A stretch of 37,017 bases of DNA from Gammaproteobacteria bacterium. GTDB lineage: Bacteria > Pseudomonadota > Gammaproteobacteria > Xanthomonadales > Rhodanobacteraceae. Below, piece after piece: positions 13,848 through 28,522 of the stretch (position 1 is the stretch's first letter; each line of letters begins with the position of its first letter). The translations under genes were made by a program, and so were the position numbers. Below the pieces are notes generated by a model that had not been told where the DNA came from, did not search any database, and saw nothing but the letters and a program-made list of their open reading frames with translations. The DNA is taken from the NCBI GenBank assembly GCA_004295005.1, contig SHNG01000094.1, positions 1 through 37,017 of the forward strand. Direction: 5' to 3'.

Positions 13848-16800
13848 TCAGAGGGATCCGCCGCCGAACTTGTGGGTGTATTGCACGTTGATGGTACGGC
13901 CCACCGCATCGAACCATGAGATGTCGTAGTACGGATACGAGGTGTAGGTCGGATCCTTGGGCGGCATCTTGTTGAACAGGTTGACCACCGACAGCGAGAT
14001 CCTTGAAGCGTCGTTGAAGCGATAGGCCATGGACGCGTTGTAACGGTAGGTCGCTGCAATGGTCGGACCCGGGTCGCCGTCTTCCCAAACCTGGTCATAC
14101 GACCAGCCATTGGGCAAACGTCCCAGGCGCTGGCCATAGAGGGTTGCCGACCAGGCATCCTTTTCCCAGCCCACGCTGACACTGGTCTTGGTGCGCGGAA
14201 TGTCGAATCCGCTGTTCACCGCAAACTGATCCTCGACCGGGTCACCCGGATACTGCTGGAAATCGTGCTCGTTGACCCAGGTGTGGTTGGCGCTCACGGT
14301 AAAACGGCCGATGCCGGTATCGAAACGGTAACGGGCAGTGAAGTCGAGGCCGCTGGTGTTTTCGCGGGCCACGTTGATCGGGTTGACGAAGATTCCGTAC
14401 AGCGATCCATTGCCACTGCGCGTGATGCGGGCCAGCGCATCCACGCAAGTGGGTGAATTGATATCGAGCGTACCCAGGCGGCAGGAGGCCTCGTCACGCA
14501 GGATGGCATCCACGCTCATATCCTGGACCTGGTTGCGCATGCGAATGTCGAACCAGTCGAGAGACAGGTCGAGGCCTTCCAGCGGGGAGAACACGAAGCC
14601 CGCCGTCCACGACTTGCTGGTCTCCGGATCGAGTTCGCGGTTGCCGGCACGGGTACGGATCAGGCCTTCCGAGTAATCCTCGCAATCCTCGGCCTCCTCC
14701 AGCAGGCAGGTGTAGTAATCGATGCCGGAGGTTTCGTCATTGCCGATGCCGGCGTAGACGTAGTGCAGGTCAGGTGCGCGGAACGCGGTGCCATAGGAGC
14801 CACGCACCAGCAGGCTGTCGACCGGCCGCCATTCCAGTCCGGTGCTCCAGGTGGCCTTGCCAATCTCGTTGCCGGAATAGCGGTATTCGTCCCAGCGACC
14901 GGCGACGCTCAGGTTGAGGGATTCGTGCAGGGGCATGCGCAACTCCCCGGCTGCGGCCCAGCGATTGCGCCCGCCATGGCCATCGGAATCCTTCCAACTG
15001 TAGTAGTAGTACTGCGTCGCCAGGGGATCCGGTTTCAGGTCATACGACTGACGGCCAAATTCAACCGTGCCGGAAAATCCTGCATCGCCGCCAGGCAGCG
15101 AGAACAGGTCCAGCTTGCTGGTCGTAAAGGCCGCAGTCGTGGTCTCCGATTGCGGGTGATACACGGTGCGCGCCGCGATCGAATCGTATTCGGCACGGGT
15201 CAACGGCGTGTAAAGGCGGCTCGGATCGGCATTGAAGATCGGGAATCCGTCATCGTCCTCGCCAAGCTGCGGTCCGAGAAACAGGGCGTTTGCATTGGCA
15301 GCGACAATCTGCGGCCAACTGATCTCGGCCTTGTACAGAGAGTGACTGAGCGAAGCTTCGTAGTCCCAGCTTTCGGCAAATACTCCCTTGAATCCGCTCG
15401 TGAATCCAAAGGTCTTTTGCGTGGTTTCAATCATGCCGCGATTGAGTCCACCCATTTCCTCGGGCGTGAACTGGCGCTGCCAGTACTCCACCTGGTCGGT
15501 GGCCTGGTTGAAGAAATAGCCCTCCTCGTTGCCGTCCGGTGCCATGTAGCTCCACGCGGCAACATCGCGAAACAGGTCGACGGTGTGATAACCCGCCTGC
15601 ACATCGGCGAACCAGGACATACCATCGCCAAAATCGTAGCTCATCGACGAATAGCCATTGATGCCACGGCGCTTGCTGATGATCGTGCCGTATCCGATCG
15701 AGGACTGGCTGCCGCAGTAAAAACCCGGACCGTAGTCGTCGAGTTCCGGATCGTACTCACCGTATCCTGGGCGCGATGCATAAAAGGTGCTGCCGTCGTT
15801 GTATGCGGCCAGCGCATCGCAGGCGGCCTGCCCCGGATCAAGATAGGTATCGTAGTAGTCGGTGCGCAGCCAGCCACGCCGGGCAATCTGTCCACTCGCG
15901 CGTGGTGCATCCAGGGTCGAATCCTGGATATCGCGGTCGTAGGCCCACAGCGGCTCTTGCGCTTGCAGGTCGACTGAAAACACGCCGCTAAAGGCATCGC
16001 GACCGAATCCGCTGACCAGGCTGGCCTCCAAGGATTCACCACCGCCTTCGGTGGTAGTGCCTGCACGTACATCCAGTATCGCGCCATCAACATGCTTCTT
16101 GAGGATGAAATTGACCACACCTGAAATCGCATCCGAACCATAAATGGCCGATGCGCTGCCGGTCAGCACTTCGATGCGATCAATCATGCCCACCGGAATG
16201 TTCGAAATATCGGTGAAGTTGCTGCGCCCCTTGAAAGGCATGGGAAAGTCGGCGATGCGGCGGCCATTGACCAGCACCAGGGTGTGATTGGGCCCAAGAC
16301 CACGCAGATCCACCTGTTGCGCACCGGGAGAAAAATCGGCACCGCTGGAGGATTGTTGGCTCTGGGTTTCACCGCCGTTCTGGGTCATCGAACGCAGCAC
16401 GTCGGGGATGCTGGTGAAACCGTTGGCCTGGATTTCCGCAGCAGTGATCACGGACACCGGCGCGGGACCCTCAACCTGGGCACGCGGGATGCGCGAACCG
16501 GTCACCTGCAGGGTCTTCATTTGCGTGACAGGCGTGTCGTCGGCTGCGGCGGATGGTCGCGCAGGCGCGACTTCGGCTTCAGCCGCGTCGGACTGGGCAA
16601 TGAGCAAGGCGCCCGAATCGGGATCCCGGGTTGCCGCAAAGCCGCTGCCGTGCAACAGCGTCTCCAGGGCCTGGCTGGTCGATGTTGCGCCCTGCACGCC
16701 TGGCGTTTGCATGCCGCGCAATTGGTCCGCATGGTAGACAAGCTGGGTTCCGCTCTGGCGGGCCAGGGTATTCAGCGCGCTGGAAAGATCGCCAGCCGGC

Positions 16801-16892
16801 ACATTGATTGGGCCGCTCACGGCTTCTGCCTGCGCAGCCAATGCAACCGAACAGGCCAGACTGAGCAACAAGCGATTCATGGATCGACGCAC
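13848..16892 (-). CDS. TonB-dependent outer-membrane receptor with N-terminal STN signalling domain
   Basis: A 1014-residue transducer-type receptor. A signal peptide (LLLSLACSVALAAQAEA) is followed by an STN domain at about 27-99 (INVPAGDLSSALNTLARQSG, LVYHADQLRGM, LLHGSGF), which contacts the FecR-type regulator. A linker, the plug (about 141-265; VTGSRIPR, VDLRGLGPNHTLVLVNGRR, IDRIEVLTGSASAIYGSDA) and a beta-barrel with many Tyr/Trp/Asp-rich loops follow. The last strand is INVQYTHKF. A predicted early loop at 345-400 is acidic and has two Cys. The start is a GTG with GGGGGAG 7 nt upstream; an ATG 12 nt later is possible. FecR and sigma genes lie directly upstream on the same strand. The ligand is unknown. 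From the adjacent cyanophycinase fusion I infer a peptide or dipeptide rather than a siderophore. Confidence 0.93.
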   Translation of the reverse strand: MRRSMNRLLLSLACSVALAAQAEAVSGPINVPAGDLSSALNTLARQSGTQLVYHADQLRGMQTPGVQGATSTSQALETLLHGSGFAATRDPDSGALLIAQSDAAEAEVAPARPSAAADDTPVTQMKTLQVTGSRIPRAQVEGPAPVSVITAAEIQANGFTSIPDVLRSMTQNGGETQSQQSSSGADFSPGAQQVDLRGLGPNHTLVLVNGRRIADFPMPFKGRSNFTDISNIPVGMIDRIEVLTGSASAIYGSDAISGVVNFILKKHVDGAILDVRAGTTTEGGGESLEASLVSGFGRDAFSGVFSVDLQAQEPLWAYDRDIQDSTLDAPRASGQIARRGWLRTDYYDTYLDPGQAACDALAAYNDGSTFYASRPGYGEYDPELDDYGPGFYCGSQSSIGYGTIISKRRGINGYSSMSYDFGDGMSWFADVQAGYHTVDLFRDVAAWSYMAPDGNEEGYFFNQATDQVEYWQRQFTPEEMGGLNRGMIETTQKTFGFTSGFKGVFAESWDYEASLSHSLYKAEISWPQIVAANANALFLGPQLGEDDDGFPIFNADPSRLYTPLTRAEYDSIAARTVYHPQSETTTAAFTTSKLDLFSLPGGDAGFSGTVEFGRQSYDLKPDPLATQYYYYSWKDSDGHGGRNRWAAAGELRMPLHESLNLSVAGRWDEYRYSGNEIGKATWSTGLEWRPVDSLLVRGSYGTAFRAPDLHYVYAGIGNDETSGIDYYTCLLEEAEDCEDYSEGLIRTRAGNRELDPETSKSWTAGFVFSPLEGLDLSLDWFDIRMRNQVQDMSVDAILRDEASCRLGTLDINSPTCVDALARITRSGNGSLYGIFVNPINVARENTSGLDFTARYRFDTGIGRFTVSANHTWVNEHDFQQYPGDPVEDQFAVNSGFDIPRTKTSVSVGWEKDAWSATLYGQRLGRLPNGWSYDQVWEDGDPGPTIAATYRYNASMAYRFNDASRISLSVVNLFNKMPPKDPTYTSYPYYDISWFDAVGRTINVQYTHKFGGGSL

Positions 16893-16938: not shown

Positions 16939-16961
16939 AGACGAGCAAGACCGGCGAATCC
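16939..16961 (-). promoter_or_regulatory. Candidate ECF-type promoter of the TonB receptor gene
   Basis: On the minus strand a GGA motif (16959-16961) and a CGTCT motif (16939-16943) are separated by 15 nt, ending 46 nt before the receptor GTG. An element of the same shape, GGA-N15-CGTCT, lies before the divergent fusion gene at 18670-18692. GGA and CGTC resemble ECF sigma -35 and -10 motifs, but the spacing is about 3 nt shorter than in classical ECF promoters. This is a motif guess from two sites. Confidence 0.3.
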
Positions 16962-16981
16962 CTCCCATTGAGTTCGCGCCG

Positions 16982-18046
16982 TCAGAGTGAATGCAGGACG
17001 ATCCGGTCCGGCAGGCGTTCAACACGAACCGGAAATCCAAGCTCCAGCAGACTCACGAATCCATCGCTGTTGTCCCAGCGGAAATTCCCGCCGATTCGCA
17101 GCAAGGCGACGCTGGAATCGCCGAGTTCGATCTTGCGCAGGCTGAATCTGTTGAATTCCGCCACTGCATCCACCAGAGCCGTATCGTCGAATGCGAGAAA
17201 CCCGCTGCGCCATTCCAGGTGGCGCTCGGCTTCCTCGAGGGACACGGAACGCACCAAAACACCATTGGGCCCGGCACTGGCCATGCTGCCAGCCGGCAGG
17301 AACGTGGATGGCCCACCTTGTCCATGGGCATCGGCTGGACTGTCGAGCCTGACCTTGCCCTCGGTCACTACCACGCGCAGGTTTCTTGCATCGCGACGTA
17401 CCGAAAAGCGCGTGCCCACCGCCACCACATGGTGGTCATTTGCGCTGACGGCAAATGGACGAGCGGCGTCATGCGCCACCTCGAAGTAAGCCTCGCCGCG
17501 CAGCAGGGTGACGGAACGTGCATCACGCGTCATGACCACGTCGATCTGGCTGGCACTGCTCAGCGTGGCCGAGCTTCCATCGGCAAGCGCAATGGTTTTC
17601 AGCTCACCCGTGCGACTGGCAAACGTGGCCTCCTGGCGCCCACTGCGGTTCCAGCCAGACCATGCCATAAATGCAACAGCAACGACTCCAAGCGAGGCTA
17701 CGAGCGCCATGCGCCATCCACGCACCCGATGTGCGCGGGTGCGCAACGGTCGCGGATTGCGCCACTCGACCTGGCTGCTTGCTTGCGGCTCACCGGACCC
17801 GGCAACCGCATGCGAAGTCCAGGCGTATCGAGCAGGCACGCCTCCCTTGTCGGCAGCAATGGACAGGGCACGCAGCCGGTCCGCCTCCCTCCACGCCGCT
17901 TCCAGTCGCAGGAATGCGACCCGGTGACGGGTAGAGCTGGACAACCAGGCTTCCAGTTCCTCGCCATCGCGTGGCGTCCATTCATTGCACTCGCGACGTG
18001 CGAGCCATTCAGCCGCATGCTGCTCAATCCACCTGCTGTCGCGCAT
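16982..18046 (-). CDS. FecR-like anti-sigma / sigma-regulator protein
   Basis: A 354-residue inner-membrane regulator. The N-terminal cytoplasmic part (RDSRWIEQHAAEWLARRE, DGEELEAWLSSSTRHRVAFLRLEAAW) is the DUF4880 helix bundle that binds the sigma factor. One transmembrane segment lies at about 113-130 (MALVASLGVVAVAFMAW). The periplasmic FecR domain carries GELKTIALADGSSATLSSAS, VTLLRGEAYFEVAHDAARPF and VGTRFSVRR, and a C-terminal STN-like/DUF4974 domain ends at VRVERLPDRIVLHSL. In known systems FecR passes the ligand-bound state of the receptor to the sigma factor. The ATG at 18046 has GAGGAAG upstream and overlaps the end of the sigma gene by 23 bp, indicating coupling. The receptor gene follows 89 bp downstream. 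Confidence 0.92.
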   Translation of the reverse strand: MRDSRWIEQHAAEWLARRECNEWTPRDGEELEAWLSSSTRHRVAFLRLEAAWREADRLRALSIAADKGGVPARYAWTSHAVAGSGEPQASSQVEWRNPRPLRTRAHRVRGWRMALVASLGVVAVAFMAWSGWNRSGRQEATFASRTGELKTIALADGSSATLSSASQIDVVMTRDARSVTLLRGEAYFEVAHDAARPFAVSANDHHVVAVGTRFSVRRDARNLRVVVTEGKVRLDSPADAHGQGGPSTFLPAGSMASAGPNGVLVRSVSLEEAERHLEWRSGFLAFDDTALVDAVAEFNRFSLRKIELGDSSVALLRIGGNFRWDNSDGFVSLLELGFPVRVERLPDRIVLHSL

Positions 18047-18620
18047 GAGCTTCTTCCTCTTCATCACCGCCACGACGCGCCTGCTGCCGCGCGTTTCGAT
18101 GCATGGGTTCGCCGCCATACAGGTGATCGGCGATCAACCGCATGCCCTTGGCGAGGTGCTTCTCAACGGTCTTGGCGCTGATTCCAAGCTTTTCCGACAC
18201 GTCCTTTTGCGGCAGGTTTTCAACCCTGCGCAACCAGACCACCTGACGGCATCGCTGCGGCAGCCGATCCATGACTTCGATCAATCGCTTGAGGGCCTGG
18301 CGACCCCCAAACCATCTTTCCGGCGAAACCTCGTCAATCAGGTAGACGTTTGAAGGCTCGAAATCACCCATCGGTTCTATCGATACCACCCGGTTGCGAC
18401 GGGCACGATCCGCCATCAGGTGTCGCGCGGTGGCAAACAGGAACGCGGCCGGCCTCGTCGGACGCTTGTCCAGCCCGGCCTCGTAGACGCGTGCATAGAT
18501 TTCCTGGCGCAGGTCATGGACTTCGTCGCGATGAGGCCAATTGCGCAGCAGCATTCGCGTCAGCGCATGCTCGTGGACGAGGATCTCGCGTACGAACCAG
18601 TCATCGTGATCGGTGGACAT
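18024..18620 (-). CDS. ECF-family RNA polymerase sigma factor (FecI-like)
   Basis: A 198-residue sigma-70 family protein with only regions 2 and 4. Region 2 includes HRDEVHDLRQEIYARVYEAG and PAAFLFATARHLMADRARR. Region 4 includes LPQRCRQVVWLRRVENLPQ and the helix-turn-helix KDVSEKLGISAKTVEKHLAKG, which resembles the iron-starvation FecI group. The C-terminal 25 residues are Arg/Glu-rich and lie beyond region 4. It is the first gene of the sigma-FecR-receptor set and starts 123 bp from the divergent cyanophycinase-isoaspartyl peptidase gene. The expected role is transcription of the receptor gene, and perhaps of the fusion gene, when the receptor is occupied. Confidence 0.93.
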   Translation of the reverse strand: MSTDHDDWFVREILVHEHALTRMLLRNWPHRDEVHDLRQEIYARVYEAGLDKRPTRPAAFLFATARHLMADRARRNRVVSIEPMGDFEPSNVYLIDEVSPERWFGGRQALKRLIEVMDRLPQRCRQVVWLRRVENLPQKDVSEKLGISAKTVEKHLAKGMRLIADHLYGGEPMHRNARQQARRGGDEEEEAHARQQVD

Positions 18621-18669
18621 GCCCGGACTTTACGCCAGAATCGGTACGATTGGCGTTGCGGCGAATGGG

Positions 18670-18692
18670 GGAAGGCCAGTACCGGTTCGTCT
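18670..18692 (+). promoter_or_regulatory. Candidate ECF-type promoter of the cyanophycinase fusion gene
   Basis: GGAA at 18670-18673 and CGTCT at 18688-18692 (GGA-N15-CGTCT) lie 51 nt before the ATG. The same spacing and motifs precede the TonB receptor gene on the minus strand (16939-16961), at nearly the same distance from the start codon (46 nt). The pairing suggests joint control by the neighbouring sigma factor, but short GC-rich motifs also arise by chance. Confidence 0.3.
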
Positions 18693-18743: not shown

Positions 18744-20678
18744 ATGCCCAAGCGAATTTCCCTCTGGAGTATCGCCTTGCTGTCATTCCTGCCGATCGCG
18801 CTGGCAGCCCAGGCAGCGGACTACGGCCACTACCTGCTTGGCGACCGGTCAGCAAAAACACACGGGAGCGTGCAACCTGGACTGCTTCTGATGGGCGGTG
18901 GCGACCGCAATTTCGATGCGCTGCGCTGGTTCATGCAGCGTGCGGGCGGCGGTCACATCGTGGTCCTGCGCGCTTCGCAGGCAGGTGAAATCGGCGAGGA
19001 GTTCTTCAACGAGGTGGGCGGCATCGCCTCGGTGGAGACCTACGTGTTCAAGGACCGCGCAGCGGCCAGCGACGGCAAGATCCTGCGCGCGCTCAAGCAT
19101 GCCGACGGCATCTTCATCGCCGGCGGCGACCAATCCCGCTATGTGCGCTGGTGGCGGGGCACTCCCGTCGCCGAGGCCCTGGATGCCCATGTGCGCGCAG
19201 GCAAGCCGCTGGGCGGCACCAGCGCCGGACTCGCCATGCTCGGTGAATACCTGTACGGAGCAATGGACGGTGGCAGCCAGATCAGTCCACGCGCGTTGGC
19301 CGATCCGCTGGGTGCATCCAATACCATCGAGACGGATTTCCTGCACATCGAGCTCCTGAAAGGAATCATCACCGACACCCATTTCAGTGAGCGCAACCGG
19401 CTCGGTCGCTTGATCGCTTTCCTGGCAAAGGGTGAATCGCTGGCTGGACATCCCTTGCTTGGAATCGGCGTGGATGAGGACGCGGCGGTGGCGGTCGACG
19501 CCAAGGGCGTTGCGCGCGTGTTCGCCACGGCACCGGGTGCCGGCGCAACCATCGTCAAGGGCGGCTTGGCCACCCAGGTTGAAGACGAGCCGATGCAGCT
19601 CGCGCGCGTGCACACGTTGCGTGCCGGCGTTGATTCCGTCCTGCACCTGCCGCAGGGAACCGTCGAGAAGGCATCCGCTGAACGCGAGTATGCGGTTCGC
19701 GATGGAGTTCTGGCGGCACTGGACTCTCCCATGCTGGTCATCCATGGCGGCGCAGGAGTCGAGCGCGCCGATCTTTCGGCTGTCGAGGAGGCCGCCGCGC
19801 GCCTTGCGCTTGAATCGGCATTGCGCGCTGGACACAAGGAACTTGCAGGGGGCAAGCCCGCGCTCGATGCCGTGACCGCAGCCATCACCGTGCTGGAAGA
19901 CGCACCACAGTTCAATGCCGGTCGTGGTGCCGTGTTCAACCACGATGGCAGGAACGAACTGGATTCCTCGATCATGGATGGTGCATCTCACAAGGCCGGT
20001 GCCGTAGCCGGCGTGCACCGGGTCAGGAATCCAATCCTGCTCGCTCGCGCGGTGATGGAGCAGTCGAAACACGTGATGATGGTGGGAGACGGCGCCGAGG
20101 CCTTTGCCGTCGAGCGCGGATTCAGCCTGGTTGATCCTTCCTACTTCCGCACCGAAAAGCGCTGGCAGCAATTGCAACGCGCGCTGGAAGCCGAGCGCAA
20201 CGCCAAGGCAGCGGGGCTTGCGCTTGAATTGCCCGGCAAGGCCTTTTTCGGCACGGTCGGCGCCTTGGCCCTCGACTCGAAAGGACACCTTGCCGCCGGC
20301 ACATCAACCGGTGGCATGACCAACAAGCGCTATGGACGCGTCGGTGATTCCCCCATCATCGGCGCAGGCACCTGGGCCGATGAACGTTGTGCGGTTTCCG
20401 GAACCGGATGGGGCGAGTACTACATCCGCGCTTCTGCTGCGCACGAGATCTGCGCGCGCGTGCGCCTGTCCGGACAATCCATCGCACGTGCATCGGAGGG
20501 TGTCATCAACGATGACATCCCCAAGGCCGGCGGTGACGGCGGTGCCATTGCACTGGCCAGTGATGGCACCTGGAGCATGCCGTTCAATTCGGAAGGCATG
20601 TATCGCGGCTGGATCGGCAGCGATGGCGTGCCTCATGTGGAAGTCTTCAGGACACCGGCTCCGACATCCACCCGCTGA
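18744..20678 (+). CDS. Exported cyanophycinase - isoaspartyl peptidase fusion
   Basis: A 644-residue protein with a signal peptide (basic MPKRIS, core to ALAAQA). Residues about 25-320 are a peptidase S51 cyanophycinase domain: LLMGGGDRNFDALRWF, FIAGGDQSRYV, the nucleophile elbow GGTSAGLAM (Ser160) and DTHFSERNRLGRL (211-223). Residues about 328-635 are a complete Ntn-hydrolase isoaspartyl peptidase/asparaginase: VIHGGAG, NAGRGAVFNHDGRNELDSSIMDG, the autocleavage site GTVGA with catalytic Thr504, STGGMTNK, and GRVGDSPIIGAGTWAD. By family knowledge the first domain would cut cyanophycin to beta-Asp-Arg and the second would split that dipeptide. Self-cleavage at Gly503-Thr504 should leave the cyanophycinase joined to the alpha subunit. 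The ATG has AGGA at 9-nt spacing. The gene diverges from a sigma/FecR/receptor set. The substrate is inferred, and other isoaspartyl peptides are possible. Confidence 0.88.
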   Translation: MPKRISLWSIALLSFLPIALAAQAADYGHYLLGDRSAKTHGSVQPGLLLMGGGDRNFDALRWFMQRAGGGHIVVLRASQAGEIGEEFFNEVGGIASVETYVFKDRAAASDGKILRALKHADGIFIAGGDQSRYVRWWRGTPVAEALDAHVRAGKPLGGTSAGLAMLGEYLYGAMDGGSQISPRALADPLGASNTIETDFLHIELLKGIITDTHFSERNRLGRLIAFLAKGESLAGHPLLGIGVDEDAAVAVDAKGVARVFATAPGAGATIVKGGLATQVEDEPMQLARVHTLRAGVDSVLHLPQGTVEKASAEREYAVRDGVLAALDSPMLVIHGGAGVERADLSAVEEAAARLALESALRAGHKELAGGKPALDAVTAAITVLEDAPQFNAGRGAVFNHDGRNELDSSIMDGASHKAGAVAGVHRVRNPILLARAVMEQSKHVMMVGDGAEAFAVERGFSLVDPSYFRTEKRWQQLQRALEAERNAKAAGLALELPGKAFFGTVGALALDSKGHLAAGTSTGGMTNKRYGRVGDSPIIGAGTWADERCAVSGTGWGEYYIRASAAHEICARVRLSGQSIARASEGVINDDIPKAGGDGGAIALASDGTWSMPFNSEGMYRGWIGSDGVPHVEVFRTPAPTSTR

Positions 20679-20859: not shown

Positions 20860-23787
20860 ATGAACACGTGCCTGCAACGCCTCGTGCTGGCGGTTTGCAT
20901 CCTGCTTCCGGAATTGGCTCTCGCCGGCTCCTTGCCGTATGACATCGTCTATGTGCGCCAGCCGCGGTTTGGCGACAACCAGAACACCAACTGGCCTGAG
21001 GTGTTCCACCCGGCGATGCTCGATCCCGGTGCGGATCTCATGCTGCTGCATCCCAACGGCAACGAGGAAGTCCTGGTTGCCGGCGGCAATGGCAGCGTGA
21101 CCGATCCGGTTGTTTCATTCGACGCGCAATGGGTCTACTACAGCTACTTTCCCGACCTGCGCCCACAGGCCATCAACACCCAGCGCGACCTGCCCTACCA
21201 GGGTGCGGACATCTACCGTATCAACCTGAACACGCGCGTGGTGCAACGGCTGACCCACGGTGAGTTCACGCCCAATACCGGGGCCGGCAATTGGGACGAG
21301 TCCAATCCGCTGGACCCGCCTTCGCAGTTCAATCGGCTTGGCTACGGAATATTCAATCTCGGGCCGATGCCTCTGCCGGGAGGGCGCATTGCATTCACCA
21401 GCAACCGCAACGGCTTCCAGCCACCCAAGGGATACACCAACCCCACCTTGCAGTTGTATGTCATGGATGAAGATGGCGGCAACGTGACCGCCATCGCGCC
21501 CATGTCGATTGGCAGCACCTTGCATCCGACCGTGCTTGCCGATGGTCGCATCATGTTCAGCACCTATGAAAGCCAGGGACTGCGCGACCAGCGCCTGTGG
21601 GGCGTCTGGACGATCTGGCCCGATGGCCGGCATTGGGCACCGCTGATCAGCGCGTTCCGCAGGCCGCAATCGCTGCATTTCATGACCCAATTGAGCGGCG
21701 GCGACGTGGTGGTGGTCGACTACTACAACCTCAACAACAATGGCTTTGGCACCCTGTACCGCATGCCGCCGGCACTGCCACCCGGCCAGCCTGCGTTCTA
21801 CGACGCATTCGCCACCGGAGCACCCGAAATTGGTCGCACGACCGGCAGCGGGCTGGTGTACGGCTTCACCTTTCCGTTCCAGCCGGTCGGTTTGCGCTCG
21901 ATCACCCCGTTCACCACCGGCGAAGACGAAGCCGCTCCGGTGGGCACCAACGGGATACGCGTAGGCAAGTTCACCCAGCCCTCCGCCGCACCCGGCAATG
22001 ACCTGCTGGTGGTTTGGACGCCGGGACCGGCAAACGACCTCAATCGGCCATCGCCGATTCCCTACTACGACGCCGGCCTGTATCTGATCCCGAATGGTGA
22101 AACCATCAACAGCCCCGCCGAGCTGGTGACGATCAAGAACAATCCCGCCTACAACGAAGCCTGGCCGCGCGCGGTGGTGCCCTACTCGGCCATCCACGGC
22201 ATTGCCGAACCGGTCAACCTGCCTTGGCTGCCAAATGACGGAAGCCTGCATGCAGCCTTGCCTGCCGGGACTCCCAACGGACTGGTCGGCACCTCGAGTT
22301 TCTACAAGCGCGAGAGTTTTCCCGGCCTGGTGACTCCATGGTCCAACACCTTTGATGGGCTGGATTCCTTCAACACCGCCGAGAACGAACAATCGAGCAA
22401 CTGGGAAGGACAAGGCGCCGATGCGGGCCTGTACAGCAACAGCGACATCTGGGCGGTGCGCGTGCTGGCCATGGAACCCAACACCCATCGCAGCTACGGA
22501 CCCAACGCCGGTCGCCAGTTCCACAACCACGCCAACGAGCGCCTGCGCGTGATGGGTGAAATTCCCCTGCGCAAGACCAATGGCAACGGCCAACCCTTGC
22601 TGGATTCGGAAGGCAATCCCGACACCAGTTTTCTCGCCAGGCTCCCGGCCGATACGCCTTTCACCTTCCAGACCCTCGACCGTCGCGGCATGGTGCTCAA
22701 CATGGCGCAGACCTGGCATCAGCTTCGTCCCGGTGAAATGCGCGTGGATTGCGGCGGTTGTCATGCGCACAGCCAGGTTCCGCTGCCCTTTGCGGGAACG
22801 GCCGCTTCCGCACCTGGATTCCAGCCTGTCGACCTGACCTCCACGCTGCCCCTGCTCACCGTGGTCAACGGCGAACCGGCACAGCGCAGCGTTGCGCCAG
22901 GCAGTTACGATGTGGAGTTTCTTGCCGACATCCGTCCCATCCTGCAGGCGCGCTGCGTCAGTTGTCACCAGGGCGCCAATCCTGCCGGCAACCTCAACCT
23001 CAACGACCTGACCGAAATCGAAATTCCGAACGTCGGCGGCTACCCTGGTGACTACTATCGTTTGGCCATGGATGATGCCGCGCAGTTTGGCTACCGTTCC
23101 GTGATCGGCAGTGGTCGCTGGCGACAGACCAATGCCAGCCGCTATGTGCGCATGTTCCAGAGCCGACGCTCATTGTTGATATGGAAGATCTTTGGCCAGC
23201 GCCTCGACGGCTGGACCAATGCCGACCATCCGACGGAATCCGTGCCCGGCAATGCGGCAACCCTTCCGGCTGGTGCGGACCCCAATGCCGCGGATATCGA
23301 TTTCACCGGTTCGATCATGCCACCGCCACCCGCACAAGGATTGAGCGAGGAAGAAAAGCTGACCTTCGTGCGCTGGATCGATCTGGGTGCGCCCATCGAT
23401 ACCGGCAATGCGGCCTTCGGCTGGCGCCTGGATGACCTCAAACCCACCTTGACGGTGTCATCGCCTCGTCCCGGCCTAAATACAACTGCCGTGAATGTCA
23501 TCCGCATCGGCGCCGCCGACATCAACAGTGGCCTGGCACCCGGCTCTCTCTCGCTGACTGCGGATTTTGTCGTCGCCGGTCGTCCAGCGGGGAGTGAACT
23601 GGCGGACCTGCTGCAAACCTCCAGCGCGGGCATCTTCGTTCTTCCGCTGGCTGCGCCGCTGCCGGAAATGGCGCACGCCAACCTGCATGCCAGCGTGCGC
23701 GACGTACAGGGCAATATCACCCGGGTCCATGTGACGTTCTCCACCATCGAGGCTCCCGACTTGATCTTTGCGGACAATTTCGAATAA
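20860..23787 (+). CDS. Secreted di-haem c-type cytochrome, hydrazine synthase alpha-like
   Basis: A 975-residue protein with a signal peptide (LVLAVCILLPELALAG). The N-terminal half has TolB/PD40-like propeller blocks (DIYRINLNTRVVQRLTHGE, GRIAFTSNRNGF, LYVMDEDGGNVTAIA, GRIMFSTYES). The middle part (ERLRVMGEIPLRK, ADTPFTFQTLDRRGMVLNMA, WHQLRPGEMRVDCGGCH) is like the middle domain shared by hydrazine synthase alpha subunits and many uncharacterised proteins. There are two haem c motifs, CGGCH (631-635) and CVSCH (699-703), the second after DIRPILQARC as in planctomycete-type cytochromes. The last residues are DLIFADNFE. Nothing else suggests hydrazine chemistry, and a redox or sensing role outside the cytoplasm is all I can infer. 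It starts with GGGGAG/AAAGG upstream, 181 bp after the fusion gene. Confidence 0.82.
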   Translation: MNTCLQRLVLAVCILLPELALAGSLPYDIVYVRQPRFGDNQNTNWPEVFHPAMLDPGADLMLLHPNGNEEVLVAGGNGSVTDPVVSFDAQWVYYSYFPDLRPQAINTQRDLPYQGADIYRINLNTRVVQRLTHGEFTPNTGAGNWDESNPLDPPSQFNRLGYGIFNLGPMPLPGGRIAFTSNRNGFQPPKGYTNPTLQLYVMDEDGGNVTAIAPMSIGSTLHPTVLADGRIMFSTYESQGLRDQRLWGVWTIWPDGRHWAPLISAFRRPQSLHFMTQLSGGDVVVVDYYNLNNNGFGTLYRMPPALPPGQPAFYDAFATGAPEIGRTTGSGLVYGFTFPFQPVGLRSITPFTTGEDEAAPVGTNGIRVGKFTQPSAAPGNDLLVVWTPGPANDLNRPSPIPYYDAGLYLIPNGETINSPAELVTIKNNPAYNEAWPRAVVPYSAIHGIAEPVNLPWLPNDGSLHAALPAGTPNGLVGTSSFYKRESFPGLVTPWSNTFDGLDSFNTAENEQSSNWEGQGADAGLYSNSDIWAVRVLAMEPNTHRSYGPNAGRQFHNHANERLRVMGEIPLRKTNGNGQPLLDSEGNPDTSFLARLPADTPFTFQTLDRRGMVLNMAQTWHQLRPGEMRVDCGGCHAHSQVPLPFAGTAASAPGFQPVDLTSTLPLLTVVNGEPAQRSVAPGSYDVEFLADIRPILQARCVSCHQGANPAGNLNLNDLTEIEIPNVGGYPGDYYRLAMDDAAQFGYRSVIGSGRWRQTNASRYVRMFQSRRSLLIWKIFGQRLDGWTNADHPTESVPGNAATLPAGADPNAADIDFTGSIMPPPPAQGLSEEEKLTFVRWIDLGAPIDTGNAAFGWRLDDLKPTLTVSSPRPGLNTTAVNVIRIGAADINSGLAPGSLSLTADFVVAGRPAGSELADLLQTSSAGIFVLPLAAPLPEMAHANLHASVRDVQGNITRVHVTFSTIEAPDLIFADNFE

Positions 23788-25528: not shown

Positions 25529-28522
<2,994 letters not shown>

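Follow-up and report, generated by a model that had tools for sequence, protein, structure and literature searches.

An apparently exported fusion of cyanophycinase and isoaspartyl peptidase beside a divergent TonB-dependent receptor locus: probable cyanophycin scavenging in a relative of Dokdonella

The breakdown of the nitrogen-storage polymer cyanophycin proceeds through two enzymes in sequence, with CphE at the extracellular step and usually general, promiscuous enzymes at the dipeptide step; this two-step breakdown, the clustering of the genes and the resulting utilisation loci are described in PMC10206079. According to the same source, it is in genomes lacking cphA1 that cyanophycinase and isoaspartyl dipeptidase genes most often cluster, and the cyanophycin utilisation locus of Ben Hania et al., as cited there, combines a cyanophycinase, an isoaspartyl dipeptidase and a transporter for scavenging. 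A TonB-dependent receptor adjoins the cyanophycinase gene of Citromicrobium sp. JLT1363, for which cyanophycin was proposed as the receptor substrate from the neighbourhood (PMC3400609), and cyanophycinases with Sec signals have been reported from Acidobacteriota (PMC8528874). The subject of the present analysis is a gene in which a cyanophycinase and an isoaspartyl peptidase are fused, together with its divergent receptor locus. It lies in a stretch of 37,017 nucleotides (contig SHNG01000094.1 of assembly GCA_004295005.1, positions 1 to 37,017 of the forward strand; hereafter the window, to which positions refer) from a gammaproteobacterium that is a relative of Dokdonella. Two-step breakdown, clustered loci and a TonB receptor beside a cyanophycinase are already known; a published description of a cyanophycinase-isoaspartyl peptidase fusion was not found among the literature matches listed, and the terms 'fused' and 'fusion' had no matches in the available text of PMC10206079.

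The fusion gene (18744..20678, plus strand) is a single open reading frame (ORF) of 644 residues whose translation contains no internal stop; ORF, Pfam, alignment and AlphaFold2 together point to an apparently exported chain that joins a CphE-type S51 cyanophycinase to an isoaspartyl peptidase. The ATG at 18744 was preferred as start over a GTG at 18420 because an AGGA stretch and a promoter motif lie directly upstream of the ATG. The N-terminus (MPKRISLWSIALLSFLPIALAAQA|A) has, by eye only, the look of a Sec signal peptide (residues 1-24, 18744..18815, plus strand, putative cleavage AQA|A), and most of the 65 aligned fused proteins likewise have N-termini that appear hydrophobic by eye. It is followed on the same strand by the S51 domain with a C-terminal beta extension (residues about 43-326, 18870..19721; Ser160 with its codon at 19221-19223, His213, Glu245) and by an N-terminal nucleophile (Ntn) isoaspartyl peptidase domain (residues about 327-638, 19722..20657) with a predicted self-cleavage before Thr504 (codon 20253-20255). 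Pfam assigned residues 109-254 to Peptidase_S51 (41.2 bits, cut-off 23.9) and residues 329-632 to Asparaginase_2 (PF01112; 364.9 bits, gathering cut-off 27). An earlier sequence-only reading had placed an S51 cyanophycinase and an Ntn isoaspartyl peptidase on one chain, which is borne out by the intact ORF and by both domains scoring above cut-off; the motifs were also found where it had located them, namely GGDQ (127-130), GGTSAGL with Ser160, DTHF (211-214), G503|T504 in GTVGA, STGGMTNK and GRVGDSP. Its interpretation of the chain as carrying two consecutive cyanophycin-degrading steps is supported at the level of sequence. In the structure prediction that it had proposed, AlphaFold2 folds the whole chain with a mean predicted local distance difference test score (pLDDT) of 87.6 and a predicted template modelling score (pTM) of 0.86. 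A floppy linker was not predicted at the joint between the halves, where pLDDT was 89-97 in the 10-residue blocks from 281 to 350. Both hydrolytic steps are probably located on one periplasmic chain.

A chance artefact was excluded as the origin of the fusion, because a copy with 92% identity across residues 1-644 occurs in a second genome of the same genus; an identical fused sequence is present in a Dokdonella sp. entry. Residue conservation was determined from an alignment of 65 fused rows, including the present protein, after removal of 4 duplicates. Q130, E245, T504, R532, D535, T554 and G555 were invariant (65/65), and S160, D211, H213, R217, R219 and R222 were conserved in 64 of the 65 rows. 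The sole deviating row, identified by elimination, was L098, whose S51 part looks frame-disturbed and which was excluded from the trees.

Regarding the S51 half, the nearest solved structures by sequence were the cyanophycinases 3EN0, 7UQW and 7UQV (E 8.7e-18 to 1.1e-14). The conserved positions comprise a serine nucleophile in GXSXG with the catalytic His and Glu (S160, H213, E245) and the substrate pocket of cyanophycinases (Q130, D211, R217, R219, R222), residues that are critical to the cyanophycinase activity of CphB and also kept in CphE according to PMC3235067. The distance from the catalytic Ser to the His was 53 in 64/64 fused rows, and the His was preceded by Thr in 60 and by Ser in 4. 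The half was not classed as CphB, because it reached 101.5 bits against the TIGR02069 equivalog cut-off of 126.6, carries DTHF and not DQHF, and has a spacing of 53 and not 42. Its features point instead to a CphE-type extracellular cyanophycinase. In common with CphE (MEROPS S51; CphEal of P. alcaligenes, GenBank JN620418) it has the Ser-His-Glu triad, the pocket residues, Thr where CphB has Gln173, and 53 residues from catalytic Ser to His in the published CphEal numbering (PMC3235067); the Sec signal peptide of CphE has an apparent counterpart here, as judged by eye. The His-Glu spacing differs, being 32 in the fusion and 27 in CphEal by the published numbers, and CphE is described in the available text as a cyanophycinase alone, whereas here the chain continues into a complete isoaspartyl peptidase. 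Membership of a non-cyanophycinase S51 clade such as that of alpha-aspartyl dipeptidase, which the sequence-only reading had named as a point that would speak against it, did not emerge: the predicted fold is nearer to cyanophycinase than to the alpha-aspartyl dipeptidase peptidase E (PepE), and a closer likeness to PepE was found neither in sequence nor in fold.

The best solved relative of the second half by sequence was E. coli IaaA (2ZAK, E 2.5e-82), and by its Pfam assignment this half is a member of the isoaspartyl peptidase / plant-type asparaginase family PF01112. All 65 fused rows retain the G|T self-cleavage site (G503, T504) as well as R532, D535, T554 and G555, which we take to be the substrate residues of this family. 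The equivalog for E. coli-type IaaA, NF007589, was not reached (307.4 bits, cut-off 567), while PF01112 membership was retained. E. coli IaaA (EcAIII) stands alone, whereas here the alpha chain is preceded by a cyanophycinase.

A collection of species genomes scanned with the fused protein yielded 399 confirmed relatives. The best 80 loci were kept, comprising 62 fused, 13 with the isoaspartyl peptidase only, 3 with S51 only and 2 split; because the query was itself fused and fused loci therefore rank on top, 62/80 is not a frequency. The domain order, whose taxonomic spread the sequence-only reading had left to be recorded, is a conserved fusion found chiefly in Lysobacterales, the named carriers being mainly Pseudoxanthomonas, Thermomonas, Luteimonas, Lysobacter, Dokdonella (D. 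fugitiva among them), Arenimonas and Xanthomonas, with further carriers in Steroidobacteraceae, Novosphingobium and Asticcacaulis. Among the matches listed for 119 related genomes, the fusion occurred in 7 (including the present one), and the two genes stood side by side, S51 first, in at least 12, of which 10 were checked. Under even sampling (E <= 1e-100) the fusion was found in 2 of 369 class-level and 3 of 398 phylum-level genomes, own genome included in both cases, in agreement with the earlier view that the arrangement is unusual. Two Novosphingobium megaplasmids, NZ_CP017076.1 (typed conjugative) and NZ_CP141945.1 (typed non-mobilizable), carry the fusion, each time with the TonB receptor divergent from it (L126, L127). 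Unfused Sphingomonadales cyanophycinases with 61-63% identity to the first half and the same divergent receptor were seen in L111 (9863-10936, plus strand) and L113, and an isoaspartyl peptidase homologue was not found at E 1e-8 in the locus stretch examined; at L109, which holds a third such cyanophycinase, the upstream sequence was too short to judge the receptor.

The separate isoaspartyl peptidase has, by eye, its own signal peptide in the 10 split loci listed of 11, and the C-terminal extension by which the two halves are joined in the fusion is also present in unfused S51 proteins; the simplest history is therefore that a stop, a spacer and a second signal peptide were lost between two exported neighbours. 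In quick domain trees with some long branches, the well-supported branches require the fused label to change at least 3 times for S51 and at least 4 times for the isoaspartyl peptidase. Constraining the fused rows to one clade was rejected for S51 (p 0.0001) and marginally rejected for the isoaspartyl domain (p 0.044). Joining more than once is likely on this pattern, which later separations would also fit.

Divergent from the fusion, on the minus strand, lie the genes of an extracytoplasmic function (ECF) sigma factor of the FecI type (18024..18620, 198 residues; Pfam Sigma70_r2, r4_2), a FecR-type regulator (16982..18118; Pfam FecR 68.8 bits, DUF4880 31.7 bits) and a TonB-dependent receptor that combines an STN signalling domain with a plug and a barrel (13848..16892, 1,014 residues; Pfam TonB_dep_Rec_b-barrel, Plug, STN). 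The listed FecR frame overlaps the sigma gene, and its true start may be internal. The gene set of a FecIR / STN-receptor surface-signalling system is complete here. FecI-FecR-FecA is a cell-surface signalling system which likewise holds an ECF sigma factor, FecR and an STN receptor in one block; here, however, the divergent partner is a predicted polymer-degrading enzyme and not an iron-uptake function. A receptor homologue stands divergently upstream of 55 of the 62 fused genes (53/57 where at least 5.5 kb upstream were available), so that both enzyme domains and a TonB receptor, the make-up of a cyanophycin utilisation locus, occur together at these 55. Sigma and FecR homologues were each found at 54/62 fused loci within the sequence available. 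At the 13 loci with only the isoaspartyl peptidase (9 of them with 5.5 kb) no receptor, sigma or FecR homologue was found. The locus of Ben Hania et al., as presented in the excerpts of PMC10206079, shares the conjunction of cyanophycinase, isoaspartyl dipeptidase and transporter; different here are the single fused gene, the TonB receptor, the ECF sigma/FecR pair and a cyanophycin synthetase in the same genome. For the Citromicrobium sp. JLT1363 locus, the available text of PMC3400609 reports neither a fusion nor an isoaspartyl peptidase (term count 0) and mentions neither a sigma/FecR pair nor a shared promoter.

The fusion gene and the receptor gene are preceded by the same promoter-like motif, GGGGGAA-N12-TTCGTC (18667..18691, plus strand) and GAGGGAT-N12-CTCGTC (16940..16964, minus strand), respectively, both noticed on reading the upstream regions and conserved in relatives. 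FecI-type ECF sigma factors read such promoter elements. The strict pattern, GRGGGAW-N12-YTCGTC, matched three times in the whole 3.47-Mb genome, two of the matches being those at the fusion locus, and the reversed pattern not at all; the third match (contig C10, 2509-2533, minus strand) is close to a run of N and to unrelated genes. A loose version, a fixed-offset rule, detected the motif in 51/53 enzyme and 52/53 receptor upstream regions, with means of 2.4 and 1.8 and maxima of 7 and 6 in 200 dinucleotide-sampled shuffles. L108 was not a proper member, and the loose counts without it were 50/52 and 52/52. The strict pattern was present in 33/53 enzyme and 26/53 receptor upstream regions (shuffle means 0.005 and 0). 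Among 29 related genomes, 5 of the 6 with a fusion had the motif directly upstream of it (3) or at the receptor-promoter position (2, one by distance alone). In one relative (G099, contig C4, 103912-103936) the strict motif precedes another S51 gene, which is more distant (36% identity), a hint that a second S51 gene may be under the same type of sigma factor.

The build of the protein and of the locus is firm: the gene is intact, the domains are recognisable and their active sites conserved, a fold is predicted for the chain, the gene set is conserved, and one motif is shared by the fusion and receptor upstream regions. From sequence we infer export, self-cleavage, substrate, uptake and regulation, and it appears likely that the locus serves substrate-sensed cyanophycin scavenging, with uptake by the receptor and both hydrolytic steps on one exported chain. 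The TonB-dependent receptor would carry cyanophycin or its fragments over the outer membrane and would also signal through its STN domain to FecR and on to the ECF sigma factor; the latter may switch on the receptor and enzyme genes via their matching promoters, as family knowledge and the shared motif suggest. The enzyme would be exported as one chain, whose N-terminal CphE-type serine domain would trim beta-Asp-Arg dipeptides off the polymer and whose C-terminal Ntn domain would cut itself before Thr504 and then, in the periplasm, hydrolyse beta-Asp-Arg to Asp and Arg. A more specific version, put forward tentatively and at less than even chances, is a dedicated import-and-digest machine for an amide-linked storage polymer. 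In it, cyanophycin, whole or in long pieces, would enter through the outer-membrane receptor and be sensed via FecR and a sigma factor of the locus, and the single self-cleaving periplasmic chain would pass beta-Asp-Arg from the cyanophycinase site to the rigidly adjoining isoaspartyl peptidase site.

Several observations weigh against cyanophycin scavenging through such a locus. The second half gives no proof of substrate, because IaaA and IadA of cyanophycin clusters are promiscuous toward beta-aspartyl dipeptides and do not prefer beta-Asp-Arg (PMC10206079). For the same reason the main rival is general scavenging of beta-aspartyl (isoaspartyl) peptides, e.g., from aged protein, with the S51 domain acting on those and not on cyanophycin; it could also draw on the S51 score below the TIGR02069 cut-off, a shortfall shared by 3 other fused members scored. 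This rival is considered unlikely, given the cyanophycinase pocket (PMC3235067) kept in 64-65 of the 65 rows and a predicted structure nearer to cyanophycinase than to PepE. The likeness to CphE was judged from published residue numbers. As for the locus, 7 of the 62 fused loci have no visible receptor; 3 of these have less than 2 kb upstream, and L089, L090, L093 and L095 lack it despite 9.8-10 kb on both sides. In the alphaproteobacterial fused loci L094, L096, L097, L126 and L127 the receptor is present and the sigma/FecR pair and the motif are missing. The strict motif had 26 matches in the 29 related genomes against 11 for the reversed control, was missing from one of the 6 fused genomes (G027), and among 12 split-gene genomes preceded the S51 gene beside the isoaspartyl peptidase in G043 only. 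Moreover, motif and rule were derived from the same sequences in which they were counted, and because the rows are related, the counts cannot be read as independent events.

Turnover of the cell's own stored cyanophycin by the fused enzyme in the cytoplasm has to be considered because the genome encodes a cyanophycin synthetase and, at 87% completeness, has no PF01112 match apart from the fused protein. On one contig (C72, L133) stand, in a row, iadA (378.8 bits, cut-off 331.25), cphB (259.4, cut-off 126.6), cphA (1039.2, cut-off 850) and a further synthetase-like gene that is partial (337.2), an apparently complete internal route. With this separate iadA-cphB-cphA set in the genome, internal and external routes appear to be kept apart, and the apparent signal peptide of the protein and most homologues (by eye) and the divergent TonB receptor likewise make own-store turnover very improbable. 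Still less credible, at a minimal probability, is detoxification by the S51 domain in the manner of MccG acting on microcin C-like isoaspartyl-nucleotides, with the receptor importing or sensing the antibiotic. S51 peptidases with such a role exist (PMC9239234), but the same excerpts assign MccG to clade V of S51 and CphB to clade IV. Toxic peptides can be imported by TonB receptors, but the substrate of MccG forms inside the cell, and the S51 domain has pocket residues and a predicted fold of the cyanophycinase type.

A further cyanophycinase homologue of the genome (L134, contig C4, 4696-5544, minus strand) scored above the TIGR02069 cut-off (155.6 against 126.6), with GIAAG replacing GTSAG and DQGG replacing DQHF; since the catalytic Ser and His are missing, it is likely a dead enzyme beside the apparently intact cphB elsewhere in the genome. 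Downstream of the fusion, 20860-23787 (plus strand) encodes a protein of 975 residues that weakly matches the hydrazine synthase alpha middle domain (43.2 bits against a cut-off of 26.6) and that among the loci compared is present only beside this fusion and that of the closest relative. At 25529-28105 (minus strand) lies an M4 metalloprotease that also carries an FTP propeptide and PKD and PPC domains, ProA-like at 424 bits and under the equivalog cut-off of 900.

If cyanophycin scavenging is the function of the locus, many Lysobacterales would complete cyanophycin breakdown outside the cytoplasm, on one chain and with a sensor of their own, and in the present genome this external route would run beside a separate internal one. 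The fusion would then take cyanophycin all the way to free Arg and Asp with a single enzyme, the receptor would be a candidate for the uptake of an amide polymer, and the locus would provide a testable system for the transfer of cyanobacterial nitrogen to other bacteria.
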